The notes below the pieces were generated by a model, which did no database searches, had not been told where the DNA came from, and was given only the letters and a program-made list of their open reading frames with translations. Below are positions 44,867 through 53,319 of a DNA stretch of 64,000 bases, in pieces. Origin of the DNA: Acidobacteriota bacterium (GTDB taxonomy: Bacteria; Acidobacteriota; Vicinamibacteria; Vicinamibacterales; UBA8438); contig VXRJ01000018.1 of NCBI GenBank assembly GCA_009838525.1, positions 186,001 through 250,000 on the forward strand, given 5' to 3'. Both the position numbers and the translations under genes were made by a program. The stretch's first letter is position 1; each line of letters opens with the position of its first letter.

Positions 44867-45787
44867 ATGCAGAAGCTCGTAGAGCAGGAAAATGCCCCAC
44901 GTGTGAATCCGCTGCGCGCGGCCCCCGCGCTGGCAGTGCAGTTCTTCCTGATCCCACTCGCCGTCGTCGGCATGGTAGTGCTGGTTTACGGCGGCTTTCG
45001 CATGCTGGTAACGACGGAGCGGACCCCACAGGAATTACTGGTCGACGTTCAGTCAGGTGGCCGTGAACGGAGGTGGCCGGCGGCGTACGAGTTGTCCCGG
45101 ATGTTGGCCGATCCGCAAACCGAAGCACAGAATCCGGAGTTGGGCGCGGCGATCGTTCAGGCCTTCACTGATGCCGATGGTGGCGACCCGCGGTTGCGGC
45201 GTTACCTGGCGCTGGCGATCGGAAGGCTCGCCGCTCCGCCCATCAACGCCGTGGACGAACTGCGGGGCGCGCTGAACGACCCGGACAACGAAACCCGGAT
45301 CAGTGTCATCTGGGCCCTCGCCTCGCTCGGCGACGTGGGTGTCGTGGCGGATATCGAGGCGATGTACGCCTCGGACGATGCCGGCGTTCGAAAAATGGCC
45401 GTCTACGCGCTCGGAACGCTGCCGGGAAGCGGAGACCACGGCACGCTCCGGAACGCGTTGGATGATCCGGCGGCCGACGTGCAGTGGAATGCCGCGGTGG
45501 CGCTGGCGCGGCATGGCCGGGACGACGGGATCACGGTGCTCCGCCGGATGCTGGATCGCGAGTACGTTTCTCGTATGGTGACGCGCAGCGCAGCGGCGGA
45601 GGCAGCCATCGATCCGGTGAGCGAGGTCATCGTGAGCGGCTTGCAGGCAGCAGCGACGCTCGGAGCGGCCGAGTTGCGCCCGTCCGTCGAGGCGTTGAGC
45701 GAATCGGACGCCAACCTGCGAGTCCGTGAGGTGGCGATCAAGACCCTGGACGTGTTGAATCAGTCAACGAGGAGCCGGACCGGATGA
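44867..45787 (+). CDS. Membrane-anchored HEAT-repeat protein of the bc-complex operon
   Basis: 306 aa. One membrane helix (about 24-46), then HEAT-like helical repeats in the rest of the protein (for example LNDPDNETRISVIWALASLG, YASDDAGVRKMAVYALGTLP, LDDPAADVQWNAAVALARHG). No catalytic residues are apparent. It overlaps the Rieske gene by 4 bp and so is almost certainly part of the complex or its assembly. A scaffold or docking role for the soluble domains is inference. Confidence 0.8.
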   Translation: MQKLVEQENAPRVNPLRAAPALAVQFFLIPLAVVGMVVLVYGGFRMLVTTERTPQELLVDVQSGGRERRWPAAYELSRMLADPQTEAQNPELGAAIVQAFTDADGGDPRLRRYLALAIGRLAAPPINAVDELRGALNDPDNETRISVIWALASLGDVGVVADIEAMYASDDAGVRKMAVYALGTLPGSGDHGTLRNALDDPAADVQWNAAVALARHGRDDGITVLRRMLDREYVSRMVTRSAAAEAAIDPVSEVIVSGLQAAATLGAAELRPSVEALSESDANLRVREVAIKTLDVLNQSTRSRTG

Positions 45788-46464
45788 ATCCCCTGCTTGC
45801 CGTCATCGTGACCGGGATCGCCATGTTTGCGGCGCACATCCTGGTGATCCTGCTGTTTCGCGAGAAGCCGGCGCCGAAGCCGGCCGTGGTCAAGGCGCCG
45901 GCCCCCGCGGTTCGCGCACCCAGTCTGGCCGACCGGGTCGTGCCGCGCACGGCGGACGACATGTCACCGCTGATGGGTCGCCGGGGCTGGATGGGCCTCG
46001 CCTGGGGCGCCTTCACAGCGTCAACTGCGGGTTGTCTGGCCGCGACCGGCCGGTTCATGTTCCCCAACGTCCTGAACGAGCCGCCCCAGCAGTTCACTAT
46101 CGGCTTCCCCGGCGAGTACGCCGAGGGCGTGGACGAAAGGTGGAAGGACCGGTTCGGCGTGTGGGTAGTCCGGACGCCGTTCGACGACTACCACGAGTCG
46201 TCCGGCTTCTACGCGCTGCTCGTCACCTGCACGCATCTCGGGTGCACGCCGAACTGGCTCTCTGCGGAGAACAAGTTCAAGTGCCCCTGCCACGGCAGCG
46301 GATTCCGTCCCACTGGCATCAACTTCGAGGGACCGGCCCCGCGGCCGCTCGAGCGGGCGCGGATCGTACTGGCGGAAGATGGACAGATCCTGATCGACAA
46401 GGCGCGGAAGTTCCAGGAGGAGCTGGGGCAGTGGACCGACCCGGAGGCATTCCTCTCCGTCTAG
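45784..46464 (+). CDS. Rieske iron-sulfur protein of a cytochrome bc-type complex
   Basis: 226 aa. An N-terminal membrane helix (about 4-25) and a second hydrophobic segment (about 68-90) precede the Rieske fold. [2Fe-2S] ligands are in CTHLGC (149-154) and CPCHGSGF (167-174): Cys149, His151, Cys167, His170, with the disulfide pair Cys154/Cys169. Transfers electrons from quinol to the cytochrome c. The extra N-terminal helix and Pro/Ala linker differ from simple one-helix Rieske proteins. Confidence 0.94.
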   Translation: MNPLLAVIVTGIAMFAAHILVILLFREKPAPKPAVVKAPAPAVRAPSLADRVVPRTADDMSPLMGRRGWMGLAWGAFTASTAGCLAATGRFMFPNVLNEPPQQFTIGFPGEYAEGVDERWKDRFGVWVVRTPFDDYHESSGFYALLVTCTHLGCTPNWLSAENKFKCPCHGSGFRPTGINFEGPAPRPLERARIVLAEDGQILIDKARKFQEELGQWTDPEAFLSV

Positions 46465-46504: not shown

Positions 46505-47320
46505 ATGGCCAAGGCGAAAACGATTGATCCGCAGGAAAGCGCGCTGGTGCGCTTCTGGAACTGGCTGACCGAGACGCAGATCTGGAGGTCGGTCTTCCGG
46601 CACGCAGCGCCAATCAACGACCGCAACCGCGTGCTGGTAATGCTGTCGAACGTCTTCCTGCATCTGCACCCGGTCCGACTCAAGAAGCATGGCGTCCGCC
46701 TGCGCTACACCTGGTGCATGGGAGGGCTGAGCTTCTTCCTCTTCCTCGTACTGACGTTCACCGGCCTGCTGCTGATGTTCTACTACCGGCCAACGCTCGA
46801 GTACGCCTACTCGGACATCGTCGGCCTTCGTGAGCACGTGCCGCTCGGCATCATGCGCGAGATGCACCGCTGGGGTGCGCACGCCATGGTAATCACCGTC
46901 TGGTTGCACATGTTCCGCGTGTTCATGACGGGCAGCTACAAGCCGCCGCGCGAGTTCAACTGGAACGTTGGCGTCATCATGCTGGTGTTGACGTTGCTGC
47001 TGTCGTTTACCGGCTACCTGCTGCCATGGGATCAGCTGGCGATCTGGGCGATCACGGTCGGTGCCAACATGGCGCGCGCGACACCGTTCCTCGGCTATGA
47101 GGGGCCGGGCGCCGCTTTCCTCGCAATTGGCGACGTGCAGTTGGTCCACGCCGCCGACGACGCGCGGTTCGCGCTGCTTGGCGGCACATTCGTGGGCGAG
47201 GGCGCGCTGCTGCGTTTCTACGTGCTGCACTGTGTGGCGCTCCCCCTGGTAATCGGTTTCCTGATGGCGGTCCACTTCTGGCGCGTCAGAAAGGACGGCG
47301 GCATTTCCGGGCCCCTCTAG
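46505..47320 (+). CDS. Cytochrome b6-like subunit
   Basis: 271 aa with four core membrane helices. Haem ligands: HRW...LH with 14-residue spacing in the second helix, and LHC...VHF with 15-residue spacing in the fourth. The bH/bL helices are followed by the b6-type end [10 protein letters not shown]. It is the N-terminal half of cytochrome b; the C-terminal half is the next gene, so the split b6/subunit-IV type. An N-terminal amphipathic stretch of about 70 aa precedes the first helix. Confidence 0.93.
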
Positions 47321-47365: not shown

Positions 47366-48445
47366 ATGATGGACGCGATTAAGGGATTCTTCAATTTCGT
47401 TTCCGATCCACGGCTGTTCTTCATCATGTCGGTGCTGGCGTTGGTTTTCATCGTCTGGAAGCGGGAGCTTTTCGCGAAGAATTCCGTCGGCTACGGCCTG
47501 ATGGCCTTTCTCGGCGTCTTCTTCCTGTTCGGACTGACAGACGAGAACTTCGTCCTGATCATCGCGAAGCCGGACAACGTCCCGATCGTTGCCCTCATCT
47601 TTCTGGTGATCTTCTTCACCTGGTACTCCATGCGCGAGGCGGTCCTGAATGACCAGCGGATGGCGGCCGGCGACGATCCGATCGAGAAACAGGAATCAGA
47701 CCGGGTGTGGGTCTGGCCCGATCTCGTCTACACGGAGCTCATTTCGCTCGTGCTCTGTAGCGCCATTCTGGTCGTGTGGTCGATCGTCCTCGAGGCGCCG
47801 ATCGAGCAGCCGGCCAACCCCGCCAACACACCCAACCCTTCGAAGGCGCCCTGGTACTTCCTTGGCCTTCAGGAGATGCTGGTCTACTTCGATCCATGGC
47901 TCGCCGGCGTCGTCCTGCCGAGCCTGATCATCGTCGGGTTGATGGCGATTCCCTATATCGATACCAATCCGAAGGGAAACGGCTACTACACGTTCAATGA
48001 ACGCAAGGCCGAGATCACCATCTTCCTGTTCGGGTTCGTCATCCTCTGGTCGTCACTCATCGTCCTGGGCACGTTCCTCCGCGGGCCGAACTGGAACTTC
48101 TTCGGACCGTTCGAGTACTGGGATGTCCACAAGCTGGAGGCACTCAACAACGTGCAGTTGTCGGAATACTTGTGGGTGCGCGCACTCGGCACGTCGCTGC
48201 CCGACAATATCCTGCTTCGGGAGGGAGTCGGCATCATCCTGTCGATCGCTTACGTGACAGCGGTGCCGTATCTCCTGGCCCGCACGGTTCTCAAACGCTA
48301 CTACGAGAAGATGGGGGCGACGCGTTTCTACGTCGGCGTGTTCCTCTTCCTGATGATGCTGTCGCTGCCGATCAAGATGCTGAGCCGCTGGTTGATCAAC
48401 CTGAAGTACGTCGTCTCCATACCGGAGTTCTTCTTCAACATCTAG
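47366..48445 (+). CDS. Enlarged subunit IV-like cytochrome b C-terminal subunit
   Basis: 359 aa, about twice the size of b6f subunit IV. Three extra membrane segments (about 14-90) come first, then the subunit-IV core (from about 115) with the Qo-site loop, then further helices. Where cytochrome b usually has PEWY, this reads KAPWYFLGLQE (160-170), so the Glu that accepts the quinol proton is absent at its usual place; Glu170 is nearby. Similar APWY forms occur in bc complexes of menaquinone-using bacteria, to my knowledge. Followed after 9 bp by the multihaem cytochrome. Confidence 0.88.
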   Translation: MMDAIKGFFNFVSDPRLFFIMSVLALVFIVWKRELFAKNSVGYGLMAFLGVFFLFGLTDENFVLIIAKPDNVPIVALIFLVIFFTWYSMREAVLNDQRMAAGDDPIEKQESDRVWVWPDLVYTELISLVLCSAILVVWSIVLEAPIEQPANPANTPNPSKAPWYFLGLQEMLVYFDPWLAGVVLPSLIIVGLMAIPYIDTNPKGNGYYTFNERKAEITIFLFGFVILWSSLIVLGTFLRGPNWNFFGPFEYWDVHKLEALNNVQLSEYLWVRALGTSLPDNILLREGVGIILSIAYVTAVPYLLARTVLKRYYEKMGATRFYVGVFLFLMMLSLPIKMLSRWLINLKYVVSIPEFFFNI

Positions 48446-48454
48446 TCGAGACCT

Positions 48455-51280
48455 ATGCCTGACAAGAAGAGCATCGGACACGCCTACAACATCGATTTCC
48501 TGAACGTCGTCTTTGCGACGTCCAGCCTGTTCCTCTTCTTCACGACCATCTGGATGGTCTTCGACGACTTCGATCGGGAGTGGAAGGGCTACCAGCGGAA
48601 CTTCGTCCTGCTGGAGGAGTACGTTACTTCCCTCAGCCTTCAGGCCGCGCAGGCCGGCATCGATCAGGAGAGGCTGCAGCAGCTCAACGCCGAGCGCGCG
48701 GCAGCCGAGCAGCAACTGGCACAGAACCAGGCGCAGGTGGACGGCCTCGAGGCGCAGCTGGCTGACGTCGAGGCGGACTTCTATCGGACGAACCAGGAGT
48801 TCAACTTCCTGAAGGCGGACTACGATGTTGCGCGCTACGCCTACGAGGAGTTGCGCGAGGAGCATCCGGAGGAGGCGGTGGATGTCCGTCCCGAGATCGA
48901 CGCCATGTACGAGCGGTGGGTCGACCTGGGCATCCAGGTCGAGGAGCTGACTGCGCGGCGCGATTCACTGCGCGCGCAGATCGGCGAGTACACCGGCGGT
49001 GTGACGGATGCCGACAACGAGATCCGCGAGTTGACGGCGGAGGCGACACGGCTCGCCGATCTCGTTGCGGACCTGCAGATCGACTTCGTCGGCGACGTGT
49101 TGCTGAATGCGCCGCTGCTCGACTTCATGGCGCCCAGCCTGACGGTGCAGCAGACGATTACGCCGAACGTGGTCGATGAGCTGAACTTCATCCGCTTCCA
49201 GAAGATGGACCGATGCACCTCCTGCCACATCGCGATCGATCGCGAGGGCTACGAGGGGTATCCGCAGCCATATCGGACACACCCGAATCTCGACGATTAC
49301 GTCGGCAGTGCCTCGCCGCATCCGCTTGCGCAGGTGGGTTGCACTGTCTGCCATGAGGGAATGGGGCAGTCGATCGGCTTCATCCACGCATCGCATACGC
49401 CCGGCAGCGAGGACCAGATGCACGCGTGGGAGGAGCAGTACGGTTGGGAAGTGCCGCACCTGTGGGACTATCCGATGCTCCCGACCGATATGACCGAGGC
49501 TTCGTGTTCCAAGTGTCACCGTGAGACGGTGCACGTGCCGGAAGCGGAGAACCTGAACCTTGCCTACGGGCTGTATGAGCGGGCCGGGTGCTACGCCTGC
49601 CATACGACTACCGGCTTTACCGACTTGCGCAAGCCGGGTCCGGACTTGACGAAGATCTCGGCGAAGCTGACACCAGAGTGGGTGGCGAACTGGATCCGGG
49701 ATCCCCGGGTCGTAAAGCCCAGCACCTGGATGCCGCGCGTCTGGTACAACTCGAACACCAGTTCACCAGAGGATGCGGTGCGCAACGAGGTGGAGATCGA
49801 TGCCGTAGTTGCGTACCTCTATGCGAACTCGGGCGACCACACGTTCGCCGTGTCGTCGCCGCCGTCCGGGGACGCGGGCAGGGGTGAAGAGCTGGTCAAC
49901 TCGACCGGCTGCCTGGCGTGTCACATCACCGAGGACATGAATCGGCTCGCCGCCGGTGCGCGCCGCACGTTCGGTCAGCCGCTGCAGAACATCGGCAACA
50001 AGACGAGCTATGAGTGGCTCTTCGACTGGGTGCGTGACCCACGGCACTTCAGTAGCGATACCTACATGCCGGATCTGCGCCTTACCGATCAGGAGGCGGC
50101 TGACGTCGCGACGTACCTGGCAACTCTAACCGGTCCGGACGGCCGCCCGGCGGAGGCCAGCTACACCCAGGCGGACGTCACGGAGACGCTGCTTGACTAC
50201 GTCCGTTCGGTGCTGCCGAACGCCGAGGCGCAGGAATTGGTGGGCGGGTTGTCAGCCGACGAGCAGCAGATCGAGTTGGGGCAGCGTGTGATCGGCCGCT
50301 ACGGCTGCTTCAGTTGCCACGACATCAGCGGATTCGAGGATGCCCAACCGATCGGGATCGAGCTCTCCGAGGAGGGATCCAAGCTGCTCCCGCGGCTCGA
50401 CTTCGCTTTCGTCCATGACATCCCGCATACCAAGGTGGACTGGTTCAAGCAGAAGATGCGGGATCCACGCTCGTTCGACCGCAACCGGGTCCTGCAGCCG
50501 CTCGAGAAGCTGCGGATGCCGAACTATGGCATGAGCGAGGAAGAGGCGACACTATTCTCCACCGCGATCATGAGCTTCCAGACGAACGTGCAGCCGCTCG
50601 CGGCGCAGGTGCCTCGTTCCGCGCGGAACGACGGCTTGCGCGAAGGGCGCAACCTCGTGCGCCGGCGCAACTGCGTGGCGTGCCACGAGATCGAGGCGGA
50701 CGGAGGCGACTACGTGCAGCTGGTGGACGATCCGTCCGTCGCGCCGCCCTTGCTGACGCCTCAGGGCGCCAAGGTGCAGCCGGACTGGATGTACGCGTTC
50801 TTCCAGAATCCGATCCCGATCCGCCCATGGCTTGACGTCCGCATGCCGACGTTCGATCTGGACGACGCGCACTGGAACACGGCGATCGACTACTTCGGTG
50901 CGATCTCCGACACTATCGGCGAGTTCCGGTCGCACGCGGAGCTGACTACTGCCGACGTGCCGCGCGAGGGAGAAGAACTGTTTGAACTGCTGCGCTGCCA
51001 GCAGTGCCATGTGCTCGATACCATTCCGGCCGATCAGCCGACCGACAATCTGGCGCCGGACCTGCGGATGGCGCGCGAGCGATTGCAGCCGGAATGGATC
51101 ATCGATTGGCTCCGAGCCCCACTGGAGATCCAGCCCGGTACGCGGATGCCGATGTTCTGGACTGAATTCCCGGCGTCGCCCTATCCGCAACTCGACGCCG
51201 ACGGCCAGGCGCAGTTGGAAGCCATCCGCGATTACATGCTGACGTTCCGCGGCGGGCCCAGCCCGCTCAGCGGGAACTAG
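48455..51280 (+). CDS. Octahaem cytochrome c with N-terminal membrane anchor and coiled coil
   Basis: 941 aa. Membrane helix about 15-34; a long coiled coil (about 50-215, Gln/Glu/Ala-rich heptads). Eight CXXCH haem sites follow: CTSCH 254, CTVCH 296, CSKCH 351, CYACH 379, CLACH 486, CFSCH 618, CVACH 740 and CQQCH 848. The second half looks like repeated mono-haem cytochrome c modules, with W(I/L)xxWxRxP-type segments and a Met in MP(R/D/N/M) after each. Periplasmic electron outlet of the bc complex, replacing the usual single-haem cytochrome c1/f. Last gene of the operon. Confidence 0.92.
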   Translation: MPDKKSIGHAYNIDFLNVVFATSSLFLFFTTIWMVFDDFDREWKGYQRNFVLLEEYVTSLSLQAAQAGIDQERLQQLNAERAAAEQQLAQNQAQVDGLEAQLADVEADFYRTNQEFNFLKADYDVARYAYEELREEHPEEAVDVRPEIDAMYERWVDLGIQVEELTARRDSLRAQIGEYTGGVTDADNEIRELTAEATRLADLVADLQIDFVGDVLLNAPLLDFMAPSLTVQQTITPNVVDELNFIRFQKMDRCTSCHIAIDREGYEGYPQPYRTHPNLDDYVGSASPHPLAQVGCTVCHEGMGQSIGFIHASHTPGSEDQMHAWEEQYGWEVPHLWDYPMLPTDMTEASCSKCHRETVHVPEAENLNLAYGLYERAGCYACHTTTGFTDLRKPGPDLTKISAKLTPEWVANWIRDPRVVKPSTWMPRVWYNSNTSSPEDAVRNEVEIDAVVAYLYANSGDHTFAVSSPPSGDAGRGEELVNSTGCLACHITEDMNRLAAGARRTFGQPLQNIGNKTSYEWLFDWVRDPRHFSSDTYMPDLRLTDQEAADVATYLATLTGPDGRPAEASYTQADVTETLLDYVRSVLPNAEAQELVGGLSADEQQIELGQRVIGRYGCFSCHDISGFEDAQPIGIELSEEGSKLLPRLDFAFVHDIPHTKVDWFKQKMRDPRSFDRNRVLQPLEKLRMPNYGMSEEEATLFSTAIMSFQTNVQPLAAQVPRSARNDGLREGRNLVRRRNCVACHEIEADGGDYVQLVDDPSVAPPLLTPQGAKVQPDWMYAFFQNPIPIRPWLDVRMPTFDLDDAHWNTAIDYFGAISDTIGEFRSHAELTTADVPREGEELFELLRCQQCHVLDTIPADQPTDNLAPDLRMARERLQPEWIIDWLRAPLEIQPGTRMPMFWTEFPASPYPQLDADGQAQLEAIRDYMLTFRGGPSPLSGN

Positions 51281-51304: not shown

Positions 51305-51928
51305 CTAGCCGGAAGCTTGCTCCTGGCTGGGTACAGAGGCTACTGCCGCGTCCGTTTCGACGAACTCCGCGCCGGCGGCGCGCATCTCTTCGATTGCCTG
51401 GGGGCCGTCTTCCGCATTCAGGTTGACAGCTGCGATGGCGTCCGACACGACCGACACCCGCAACCCCTGTCGGCAGGCGTCGAGAACCGACGCCCGAACG
51501 CAGTAGTCGGTCGCCAACCCGCAGACCGTCAGGTGTTCGACTCCGTGCAGGTCGAGAGCCTGGCCCAGGCGCTCGCCGGAGGCCGTCGTCCCTTCGAAGG
51601 CCGAGTAGCCGTCGGTGTCGGGCGCAGTTCCCTTGCTGACCACCGCAGTCTCGGGTGGCAGGGCCAGTCCCGGATGGAATGCGGCGCCGTTGGTTCCTGC
51701 CACACAATGAACGGGCCATACCCCGCCGCCTTCCGTGAAGTGGGACGACCCGGCCGGATGCCAGTCGCGCGACGCGAAGATCGAGGCGCCAGCCGAGGCA
51801 TAAGCCGCCGTCAGGCGATTAATGAGCGGGACCACGCAGTCGCCCCCCGGTACTGCGAGGGCGCCTCCCGAGCAGAAGTCGTTCTGCACATCCACCACCA
51901 GGAGCGCCTGTCGGGTCCGTTCAGTCAT
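51305..51928 (-). CDS. pncA: Nicotinamidase
   Basis: Hydrolyses nicotinamide to nicotinate. 207 aa. Catalytic triad Asp13 (VVDVQNDF), Lys99 (SKGTAPDTDGYSAF) and Cys143 (ATDYCVRAS); metal ligands Asp55, His57, His63 and His74 (RDWHP onwards). Divergent from pncB, 53 bp apart. TGTAAT ends 9 nt before the ATG and no Shine-Dalgarno is visible. Confidence 0.94.
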   Translation of the reverse strand: MTERTRQALLVVDVQNDFCSGGALAVPGGDCVVPLINRLTAAYASAGASIFASRDWHPAGSSHFTEGGGVWPVHCVAGTNGAAFHPGLALPPETAVVSKGTAPDTDGYSAFEGTTASGERLGQALDLHGVEHLTVCGLATDYCVRASVLDACRQGLRVSVVSDAIAAVNLNAEDGPQAIEEMRAAGAEFVETDAAVASVPSQEQASG

Positions 51929-51981
51929 GGGTGGTAGATTACACCTGCCGTCGCGATGGCGACGGACCTGAAGGCTTAGCT

Positions 51982-53319
51982 ATGGCGACCGGACTCTCCA
52001 CCGACCTGTACCAATTGACGATGGCGGCAGGTTACTTCGAAGGGGACGTCGGGGCCGTCGCCAGCTTCGAGTTGTTCGTGCGGGAACTGCCGCCGGAGCG
52101 AGGCTACCTGGTAGCGGCGGGACTCGATCAGGCACTCACGTACCTGGAAGAGTTCCGCTTCACGGCGGACGAGGTCGAGTTCCTCCGGACGGTACCGACA
52201 CTGCATGGCGCACCAGCGCGTTTCTTCGACGACTACTTGCCGTCATGCCGTTTCACGGGCGATGTCTGGGCGGTCGCGGAGGGAACGCCGGTCTTTCCGA
52301 ACGAGCCGCTGATCCGCGTGACCGCCCCGATCATCGAGGCTCAGATTGTCGAGACGGCGCTCCTGGCCACCGTGCTTTTTCAGACAGCGGTCGCCAGCCG
52401 CGCCTCGCGGATCGTTCGCGCCGCTGCCAACCGGCCTGTCTTCGAGTTCGGCACACGGCGCGCGCATGGCCTGGAATCGGGACTCCTAGCTGCTAGGGCT
52501 GCCTGCATCGGGGGTTGTGCGGGAACCTCGAACGTCGAGGCGGGACGCGCCTTCGATCTGCTGCTGTCGGGCACGATGGCGCACTCGTGGGTGATGATGC
52601 ATGCCACCGAGCGGGAGGCATTCGAGCGTTTCGCCCGGCTCTATGGCGATCAAGCGATCTTGTTGATCGACACCTATGGTCCGATCCGGGCGGTCGATCG
52701 AATCGTCGAGGCTGGGCTCACGCCGGCCGCCGTCCGGATCGACAGCGGTGATCTGCTGGAAAGCAGCCGGGCAGTTCGGAGGCGACTGGATGCTTCGGGT
52801 CTTTCCGCGACACGAGTATTCGCTAGCGGCGATCTGGACGAACATCGGATTGCGGACTTGATGGCGAAGGGAGCGCCGATCGACGCTTTCGGCGTCGGTA
52901 CCGCTCTGAGTACGGTTGCCGACGCGCCCGCGCTTGGCGGCGTCTACAAACTGGTCGAGATCGAACGCGCCGGTCGCACCGAACCGGTCCTAAAACTGAG
53001 TCAGGACAAGGCGACGCTCCCAGGCAGGAAGCAGGTATGGCGGGTCACTGGCTCGGACGGTGCCGCGACGCGCGACGTGATCGGCTGTCTGGATGAAGCT
53101 CCGCCTGCCAGAGGTGCGCCACTCCTTGCTCCCGTAATGCGGAGAGGCTGCCGTCTACATTCGGCCCTTCCGATCACAACCGTCCGCGAGCGATGCGGTC
53201 GTGCCGTCGACCGCCTGCCGCCCGCCACGTTGCGGCTGGAGGGGGCCGTTTCCTACCGCGTGGACGTCAGCGAGCCCTTGATTTCTCTCGCCGCCATGCT
53301 CGGTTTCCCGCTCGGGTGA
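51982..53319 (+). CDS. pncB: Nicotinate phosphoribosyltransferase
   Basis: Makes nicotinate mononucleotide from the product of PncA, completing NAD salvage. 445 aa from the ATG at 51982. STDLYQLTMAAGYF, FELFVRELPPERGYLVAAGL, FGTRRAHG, the autophosphorylated His in SGTMAHSWV, and VRIDSGDL are diagnostic. Confidence 0.95.
   Translation: MATGLSTDLYQLTMAAGYFEGDVGAVASFELFVRELPPERGYLVAAGLDQALTYLEEFRFTADEVEFLRTVPTLHGAPARFFDDYLPSCRFTGDVWAVAEGTPVFPNEPLIRVTAPIIEAQIVETALLATVLFQTAVASRASRIVRAAANRPVFEFGTRRAHGLESGLLAARAACIGGCAGTSNVEAGRAFDLLLSGTMAHSWVMMHATEREAFERFARLYGDQAILLIDTYGPIRAVDRIVEAGLTPAAVRIDSGDLLESSRAVRRRLDASGLSATRVFASGDLDEHRIADLMAKGAPIDAFGVGTALSTVADAPALGGVYKLVEIERAGRTEPVLKLSQDKATLPGRKQVWRVTGSDGAATRDVIGCLDEAPPARGAPLLAPVMRRGCRLHSALPITTVRERCGRAVDRLPPATLRLEGAVSYRVDVSEPLISLAAMLGFPLG

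Follow-up and report, generated by a model that had tools for sequence, protein, structure and literature searches.

The octahaem cytochrome gene and its operon

The window analysed here, a stretch of 64,000 nucleotides from the genome of an Acidobacteriota bacterium (assembly GCA_009838525.1, contig VXRJ01000018.1, positions 186,001 to 250,000), contains at 48455..51280, on the plus strand, a gene for an octahaem cytochrome c of 941 amino acids (aa), defined as an ATG-start open reading frame and by motif count, Pfam and alignments. This gene is the last of a tight operon, all on the same strand, in which it follows genes for a HEAT-repeat protein, a Rieske protein, a b6-type cytochrome b and a subunit IV-like protein. 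The role of the octahaem protein, and of the long helical segment that it carries, is the subject of this study.

The first gene of the operon (44867..45787) encodes a HEAT-repeat protein of 306 aa with one N-terminal membrane helix (Pfam HEAT_2, 7e-18; hydropathy peak at residues 22-40) and overlaps by four bases the gene for the Rieske [2Fe-2S] protein (45784..46464; 226 aa), recognised by its motifs CTHLGC and CPCHGSGF, by Pfam and by a PDB match. After 40 bases comes the gene for the b6-type cytochrome b (46505..47320; 271 aa; PF00033, 7e-39), in which the alignment gives His121, His135, His242 and His257 as haem b ligands, kept in 43/43 aligned rows, and Cys71 aligns with Cys35 of cytochrome b6, the site of haem c_n. 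The gene for the subunit IV-like protein (47366..48445; 359 aa; PF00032, 9.7e-08) follows after 45 bases and lies nine bases upstream of the octahaem gene; its product has eight hydrophobic peaks by hydropathy, four on either side of a Qo motif that reads APWYF in 43/43 aligned rows, the canonical motif being PEWY. Because cytochrome b is split into b6 and subunit IV, the complex is of the b6 type.

No cytochrome c1 or cytochrome f family appears among the listed Pfam and NCBIfam matches of the five operon proteins, and subunits of alternative complex III (NrfD-like, molybdopterin/FeS) are absent from the operon by Pfam. Thus, the original prediction, according to which the octahaem protein takes the place of cytochrome c1/f directly behind Rieske and cytochrome b genes, holds as regards gene order and the absence of these families, and has to be corrected in that cytochrome b is encoded by two genes. 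An assignment to the cytochromes of selenite and tellurite reduction (ExtP/ExtQ/ExtS) was rejected, as the scores fall below the curated cut-offs (259.6 vs 290 for b6, 60.4 vs 150 for subunit IV and 25.3 vs 100 for the octahaem protein).

The octahaem protein consists of an N-terminal membrane helix, then a long polar helical stretch, and then haem domains only. Its eight CXXCH motifs start at residues 254, 296, 351, 379, 486, 618, 740 and 848, compared with a mean of 0.006 motifs and a maximum of 1 in 2000 shuffled versions of the protein, and its single hydrophobic segment (peak at residues 18-36, mean Kyte-Doolittle value 1.99) corresponds to a membrane anchor at residues ~10-37 (48482..48565), helical in the predicted models. 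Reading frame, shuffle test and hydropathy therefore bear out the 941-aa protein with eight CXXCH motifs and a membrane anchor as first described. Residues ~38-215 (48566..49099) comprise a juxtamembrane anchor (W43..YQ..F50) and a helical hairpin, delimited by sequence, family profile and AlphaFold2, with confident helices at 71-136 and 138-205. The first three haem motifs (C254, C296 and C351; 49214..49519) are probably bis-His ligated via His276, His289 and His314, as their conservation indicates, and are followed by five class-I cytochrome c domains with putative methionine ligands (C379/M426, C486/M538, C618/M688, C740/M797 and C848/M898; 49589..51277). Pfam Cytochrom_C matches the protein at 2.5e-28 in three stretches; a PDB search with it gave weak cytochrome matches only, none of the right kind, and its SMC-type NCBIfam matches were read as coiled-coil resemblance rather than kinship.

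A predicted helical hairpin inserted before the haem domains

Residues 40-215 include two prolines and no cysteine. AlphaFold2, run on residues 1-253 with an alignment of four sequences, places helices at 8-66, 71-136 and 138-218, with predicted local distance difference test (pLDDT) values of ~91-97 for residues 91-180 and 83 residues at pLDDT >=90. Foldseek searches with the hairpin retrieved generic antiparallel helical hairpins (best E 0.035) and no match at E 1e-3 or below. The helical stretch is thus predicted to form an antiparallel coiled-coil hairpin.

In a sample of 297 Acidobacteriota genomes, 132 gave a match to the octahaem protein at 1e-10, all forms counted, and at least 36, the window's own genome included, had a near full-length continuous match among the matches listed. 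For comparison of the loci, 80 stretches were picked by hand from longer match lists and three named loci were added; the counts given below describe this fetched set and not the phylum. The operons were sorted into classes I to IV, which are labels of this analysis and not published names, and one locus (L073) was kept outside the four class counts. The distance between the shared juxtamembrane anchor (W..YQ..F) and haem 1 is 209-225 residues in class I (37/37 rows), to which the window belongs, and 205-213 in class II (15/15 rows), as against 41-53 in class III (20 of 23 rows, those in which the anchor pattern could be recognised), and in class IV 43-47 (7/7 rows). Since the spacing is 205-225 residues with the hairpin and 41-53 without it, the hairpin is a discrete insert of ~165 residues between the anchor and haem 1. 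Its length in class I differs from that of the window by a net change of at most four residues in 36/37 rows, the remaining locus (L046) having 14 extra; median identity to the window is 26%, yet K120, D124 and E131 are kept at 95-97%.

Single sequences show strict heptad periodicity to a moderate degree, and it takes the family mean to bring it out clearly. With the window sequence alone, the signal of residues 147-210 is reached by 53 of 2000 shuffles and that of residues 45-136 by 590 of 2000, whereas the profile averaged over 37 class I relatives gives 4 of 5000 for 138-205 (period 3.49) and 66 of 5000 for 71-136 (period 3.44). The coiled coil of about 165 residues originally proposed is accordingly fair in size, with helices predicted at high confidence and a moderate outcome of the heptad test.

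Partner genes of the hairpin and hairpin-less forms

The new point of this analysis is that octahaem complexes with and without the hairpin are sorted by their partner genes: hairpin forms go with oxidase genes and hairpin-less forms with an NAD(P) oxidoreductase, so that the insert marks the relatives tied to oxygen respiration.

Comparison with other bc operons of Acidobacteriota, which had been proposed as a check, returned the same gene order. The genes for b6, subunit IV and the octahaem protein adjoin in all 37 class I loci (window included), with eight CXXCH motifs in each octahaem protein, and the Rieske gene is in the operon at 35 of them, the other two reaching a contig end; these recurrences support the prediction that the octahaem protein is the outlet of a Rieske/cytochrome b complex. 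A HEAT homologue occurs in 31 of the 37 loci and lies within 200 bases of the Rieske gene in 27 of these 31. COX1 is nearby in 5/37, and no NAD(P) oxidoreductase gene was found in any of the 37, the whole window included (tblastn, 1e-20). Among the 16 class II loci, an insert of hairpin length is present in all 15 that have an octahaem gene, COX1 was found in 10 of the 16 genomes, and COX1 and/or ctaA lie next to the operon in 15 of 16 once ten longer stretches are counted; the NAD(P) oxidoreductase was found in none of the 16.

The 23 class III loci have no insert, and in 22 of them an NAD(P) oxidoreductase gene lies near the operon. The seven class IV loci have a fused cytochrome b, seven haems in six cases, and the NAD(P) oxidoreductase in one (L143), whose placement in class IV was not upheld, as the tree of haem domains puts it with class III. 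COX genes were found in 0/23 class III and 0/7 class IV loci. This tree, obtained by a quick search with Shimodaira-Hasegawa-like approximate likelihood ratio test (SH-aLRT) supports, includes 83 of 84 loci (L127, which has no octahaem gene, was left out) and unites the hairpin forms, classes I and II, in one group (SH-aLRT 95). Some genomes hold two forms, class I with class III in four (G029, G098, G254 and G278) and class II with class III in another four (G073, G121, G210 and G265). The haem c_n cysteine (b6 position 71) also separates the classes, being present in 35/35 complete class I b6 proteins and in 0/46 of classes II-IV, with glycine at this position in 16/16 class II loci.

Two side observations concern these partners. 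The class III oxidoreductase (L104-L123, L067-L069) is an FAD/NAD(P) protein with Pyr_redox_2 and Fer4_20 domains, encoded near the Rieske gene and resembling the subunit proposed for NAD(P)H formation in Kuenenia. At L127 (G132:C102), the order Rieske-b6-subunit IV is followed by ctaB-coxB-coxA-coxC without an octahaem gene, and the same genome has an octahaem match together with ctaA on another contig (L148).

A class I relative, G261, has lost the operon partners. The genome, whose completeness is put at 99%, gave no cytochrome b match at 1e-20, and its octahaem gene (812 aa; L079:8726-11164; loci L073/L079) stands at the ndk-dcd position, where genes for HEAT, Rieske, b6 and subunit IV proteins are missing. 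Its product keeps the eight haem motifs, with a segment of ~65 residues between anchor and haem vs ~177, that is, only a stump of the hairpin, and five COX1 matches are retained in the genome. That the partners and most of the hairpin are missing together agrees with contact between the two, and the retention of the oxidases speaks against its serving the oxidase alone.

Putative haem ligands

Conservation was followed in a first alignment of 44 rows (the window and 43 loci) and in a larger realigned set of 38 class I rows (L073 included), 15 of class II, 23 of class III and seven of class IV. The eight CXXCH motifs are complete in 44/44 rows of the first set and in 76/76 class I-III rows of the larger one. 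In the first set, Met426, Met538 and Met797 are kept in 44/44 rows, Met688 in 43/44 and Met898 in 41/44, and His276 and His314 in 44/44 and His289 in 42/44. In the larger set, the candidate Met ligands are kept in 52-53 of the 53 class I and II rows and His276/289/314 are complete in all 53; class III rows keep His289 in only 11/23 and His314 in 2/23, and Met898, present in 53/53 class I and II rows, is found in 1/23 of class III. This conservation, together with the Pfam Cytochrom_C matches, suggests an anatomy of three bis-His haems followed by five His/Met class-I domains.

Comparison with known systems

The b6f complex of chloroplasts and cyanobacteria likewise has split b6 and subunit IV and the haem c_n cysteine, but it has a one-haem cytochrome f, with plastoquinone and plastocyanin as partners. 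In the actinobacterial bcc complex (QcrC, complex III-IV supercomplexes), extra class-I haem domains in the c subunit reach the oxidase, with two haems and no known hairpin. Likeness of the octahaem protein to QcrC by family profile is weak (NF050122, 28.9 bits vs a cut-off of 200), as are the PDB matches.

Closer counterparts are known. Against the PDB, the Rieske protein of the window is best matched by 9rk3 (Kustd1480 of Kuenenia; 3.2e-45 over residues 104-226), ahead of 9rk4 (Kuste4569; 3.4e-19) and of b6f Rieske proteins (8e-16, cluster region only); a class II Rieske protein gives the same order, with 9rk3 ahead, and one of class III matches 9rk3 and 9rk4 about equally. A report of 2013 described an octahaem cytochrome gene next to a b6f-like operon of Nitrospina, and the same operon structure in Kuenenia and Methylomirabilis (PMC3578206). 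In 2025, AlphaFold3 models of Kuenenia Kustd1485 showed long helices wound round the complex and its Rieske protein, and a shorter distance between the membrane cofactors and the nearest c haem than spinach b6f has (PMC12954380). Thus, the octahaem complex is of a kind already known, to which the Acidobacteriota operon belongs; given these two reports, homologues had largely been described, and the design can be called unusual, as in the original prediction, only in relative terms.

The Kuenenia operon Kustd1480-1485 shares with that of the window the nearest Rieske sequence, a b6-like cytochrome b with haem c_n, a subunit IV with extra membrane helices (five in the model, vs eight hydropathy peaks in the window) and a large multihaem cytochrome with a membrane helix and, in the model, long alpha-helices. 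As Kuste4573 is called hexahaem (PMC12053348), this large cytochrome is, by elimination, taken to be the octahaem one, compared here by description only. The Kuenenia operon differs in having an NAD(P) oxidoreductase subunit, which is lacking in all 37 class I loci, most of them having a HEAT-repeat gene. Nitrospina gracilis and Methylomirabilis oxyfera also resemble the window in Rieske protein, split b6 and subunit IV, and an octahaem protein as the only neighbouring c-type subunit; compared by description only, their octahaem proteins are presented without mention of a helical insert in the part of the text consulted (PMC3578206). A literature search that mostly did not reach subscription papers brought up no account of the forms in Acidobacteriota, none of the association between hairpin and oxidase, and no experimental structure of a whole octahaem complex.

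Two further histidines of b6 were considered in the light of the Kuenenia complex. His53, in FLHLHP, is invariant in 81/81 rows with a residue there and is not one of the haem b ligands; it might bind the additional haem b that has been proposed at an interface of the Kuenenia complex. The equation of His62 of the window with the His62 named for Kustd1481 was dropped, this residue being His in 4 of the 35 class I rows with a residue there.

Proposed function

A single cytochrome b and a single COX1 are encoded in the window's own genome, and the CoxB that adjoins this COX1 lacks a haem motif; the 34 Cytochrom_C stretches of the genome include short frames that are candidate soluble carriers. 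It also contains a cluster like that of alternative complex III (G000:C18, ~580-586 kb, L082), with a fused molybdopterin/FeS protein of 1148 aa, NrfD and a multihaem cytochrome. Thus, the operon described here encodes the only Rieske/b complex found in the genome, and perhaps not the only quinol:cytochrome c oxidoreductase.

The reading that we favour, with a probability of roughly 0.62 as a whole, is that the octahaem protein is the outlet of a b6-type quinol-oxidising complex, working as a high-potential wire to an oxidase, with the hairpin as a clamp. Quinol, probably menaquinol, would be oxidised at the Qo site, where its two electrons would part, one for the b haems and one for the Rieske cluster. 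The electron taken up by the cluster would enter the octahaem subunit at a haem close to the membrane, pass through the three putative bis-His haems and then through the five putatively Met-ligated class-I domains, which would form an integral cytochrome c wire of high potential, and finally leave for a haem-copper oxidase (of aa3 type, encoded elsewhere in the genome), with or without a small soluble cytochrome as intermediary. The hairpin, of fixed length, would most likely clamp or dock onto the Rieske/b dimer and perhaps onto the oxidase.

Alternative explanations

According to the earlier proposal, the coiled coil would serve as a stalk that keeps the haem modules at a distance from the membrane, or would join subunits into an oligomer; electrons would then leave the complex far out in the periplasm. 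A straight helix 71-136 would measure ~100 Å (at 1.5 Å per residue), and the tightly kept length of the hairpin is what would be expected of a ruler. However, the two helices are about equal in length and their best structural matches are antiparallel hairpins, so the chain returns on itself; hairpin-less relatives share the same anchor and haem chain; and, in the Kuenenia model (PMC12954380), the helices wrap the complex and the c haems lie a short distance from the membrane cofactors. We therefore consider a stalk unlikely, and a clamp or coupling arm likelier. Less probable still is that the octahaem wire feeds acceptors other than oxygen (metal oxides, humics or a reductase) while alternative complex III serves the oxidase. 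Multihaem cytochromes often play such roles, and both the alternative complex III-like operon and the distance of the oxidase genes from the octahaem operon agree with this idea; against it, the five Met-ligated domains suggest a high potential, related class II operons sit inside cta/cox clusters, the protein is tethered to the inner membrane by its N-terminal anchor, and the class I loci showed neither a porin-like protein nor an outer-membrane cytochrome as a recurrent neighbour. As for a bifurcation as proposed for Kuenenia, in which the complex would make NAD(P)H and the octahaem protein would pass the other electron to a high-potential acceptor, the kinship of the Rieske protein to Kustd1480 and the oxidoreductase linked to class III operons of the same phylum would favour it, but the absence of that gene from every class I locus makes it very improbable here.

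Several observations weigh against the outlet-to-oxidase reading itself. Neither the window nor 32/37 class I loci have oxidase genes next to the operon, and four of the five class I loci with COX1 belong to one family (f32). Because each class is nearly one clade, the associations of the classes amount to few independent events, and the flanks of classes III and IV were mostly shorter (stretches of 8-9.5 kb) than those of class I. The Kuenenia complex combines long helices with an NAD(P) oxidoreductase and so breaks a simple rule of hairpin and partner. The G261 stump comes from one assembly on a long branch, and AlphaFold2 on the full-length 941-aa protein (four sequences) was poor outside the hairpin (mean pLDDT 35.7). 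Finally, given the alternative complex III-like operon and the small cytochrome c candidates, the sole use of this complex and direct contact with the oxidase are matters of inference.

A wider proposal, possible if rather doubtful, would join these elements: the octahaem protein would bridge a dedicated complex III-IV assembly, replacing soluble cytochrome c, and the hairpin would be a coupling arm present only where a haem-copper oxidase is served, absent from the paralogue with the NAD(P) oxidoreductase, and lost together with the Rieske/b partners. No part of bc complexes varies more than the c-type subunit. Across Acidobacteriota, the octahaem operon occurs in up to four forms, some side by side in one genome, and from form to form the hairpin, the NAD(P) oxidoreductase, the oxidase genes and the haem ligands vary jointly. 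Comparison of these natural variants makes it possible to test what a multihaem outlet gains over one with a single haem, and whether a fused III-IV chain runs in these bacteria.

Other genes near the operons

Among plasmid records, no match was found. Near the operons, a gene for a protein with a carboxypeptidase-regulatory-like domain recurs in 14/16 loci of class II, 22/23 of class III and 17/37 of class I; it was not found in the window. Downstream of the octahaem gene, at 51305-53319, lie what we take to be a nicotinamidase-like gene, on the minus strand, and a nicotinate phosphoribosyltransferase-like gene.

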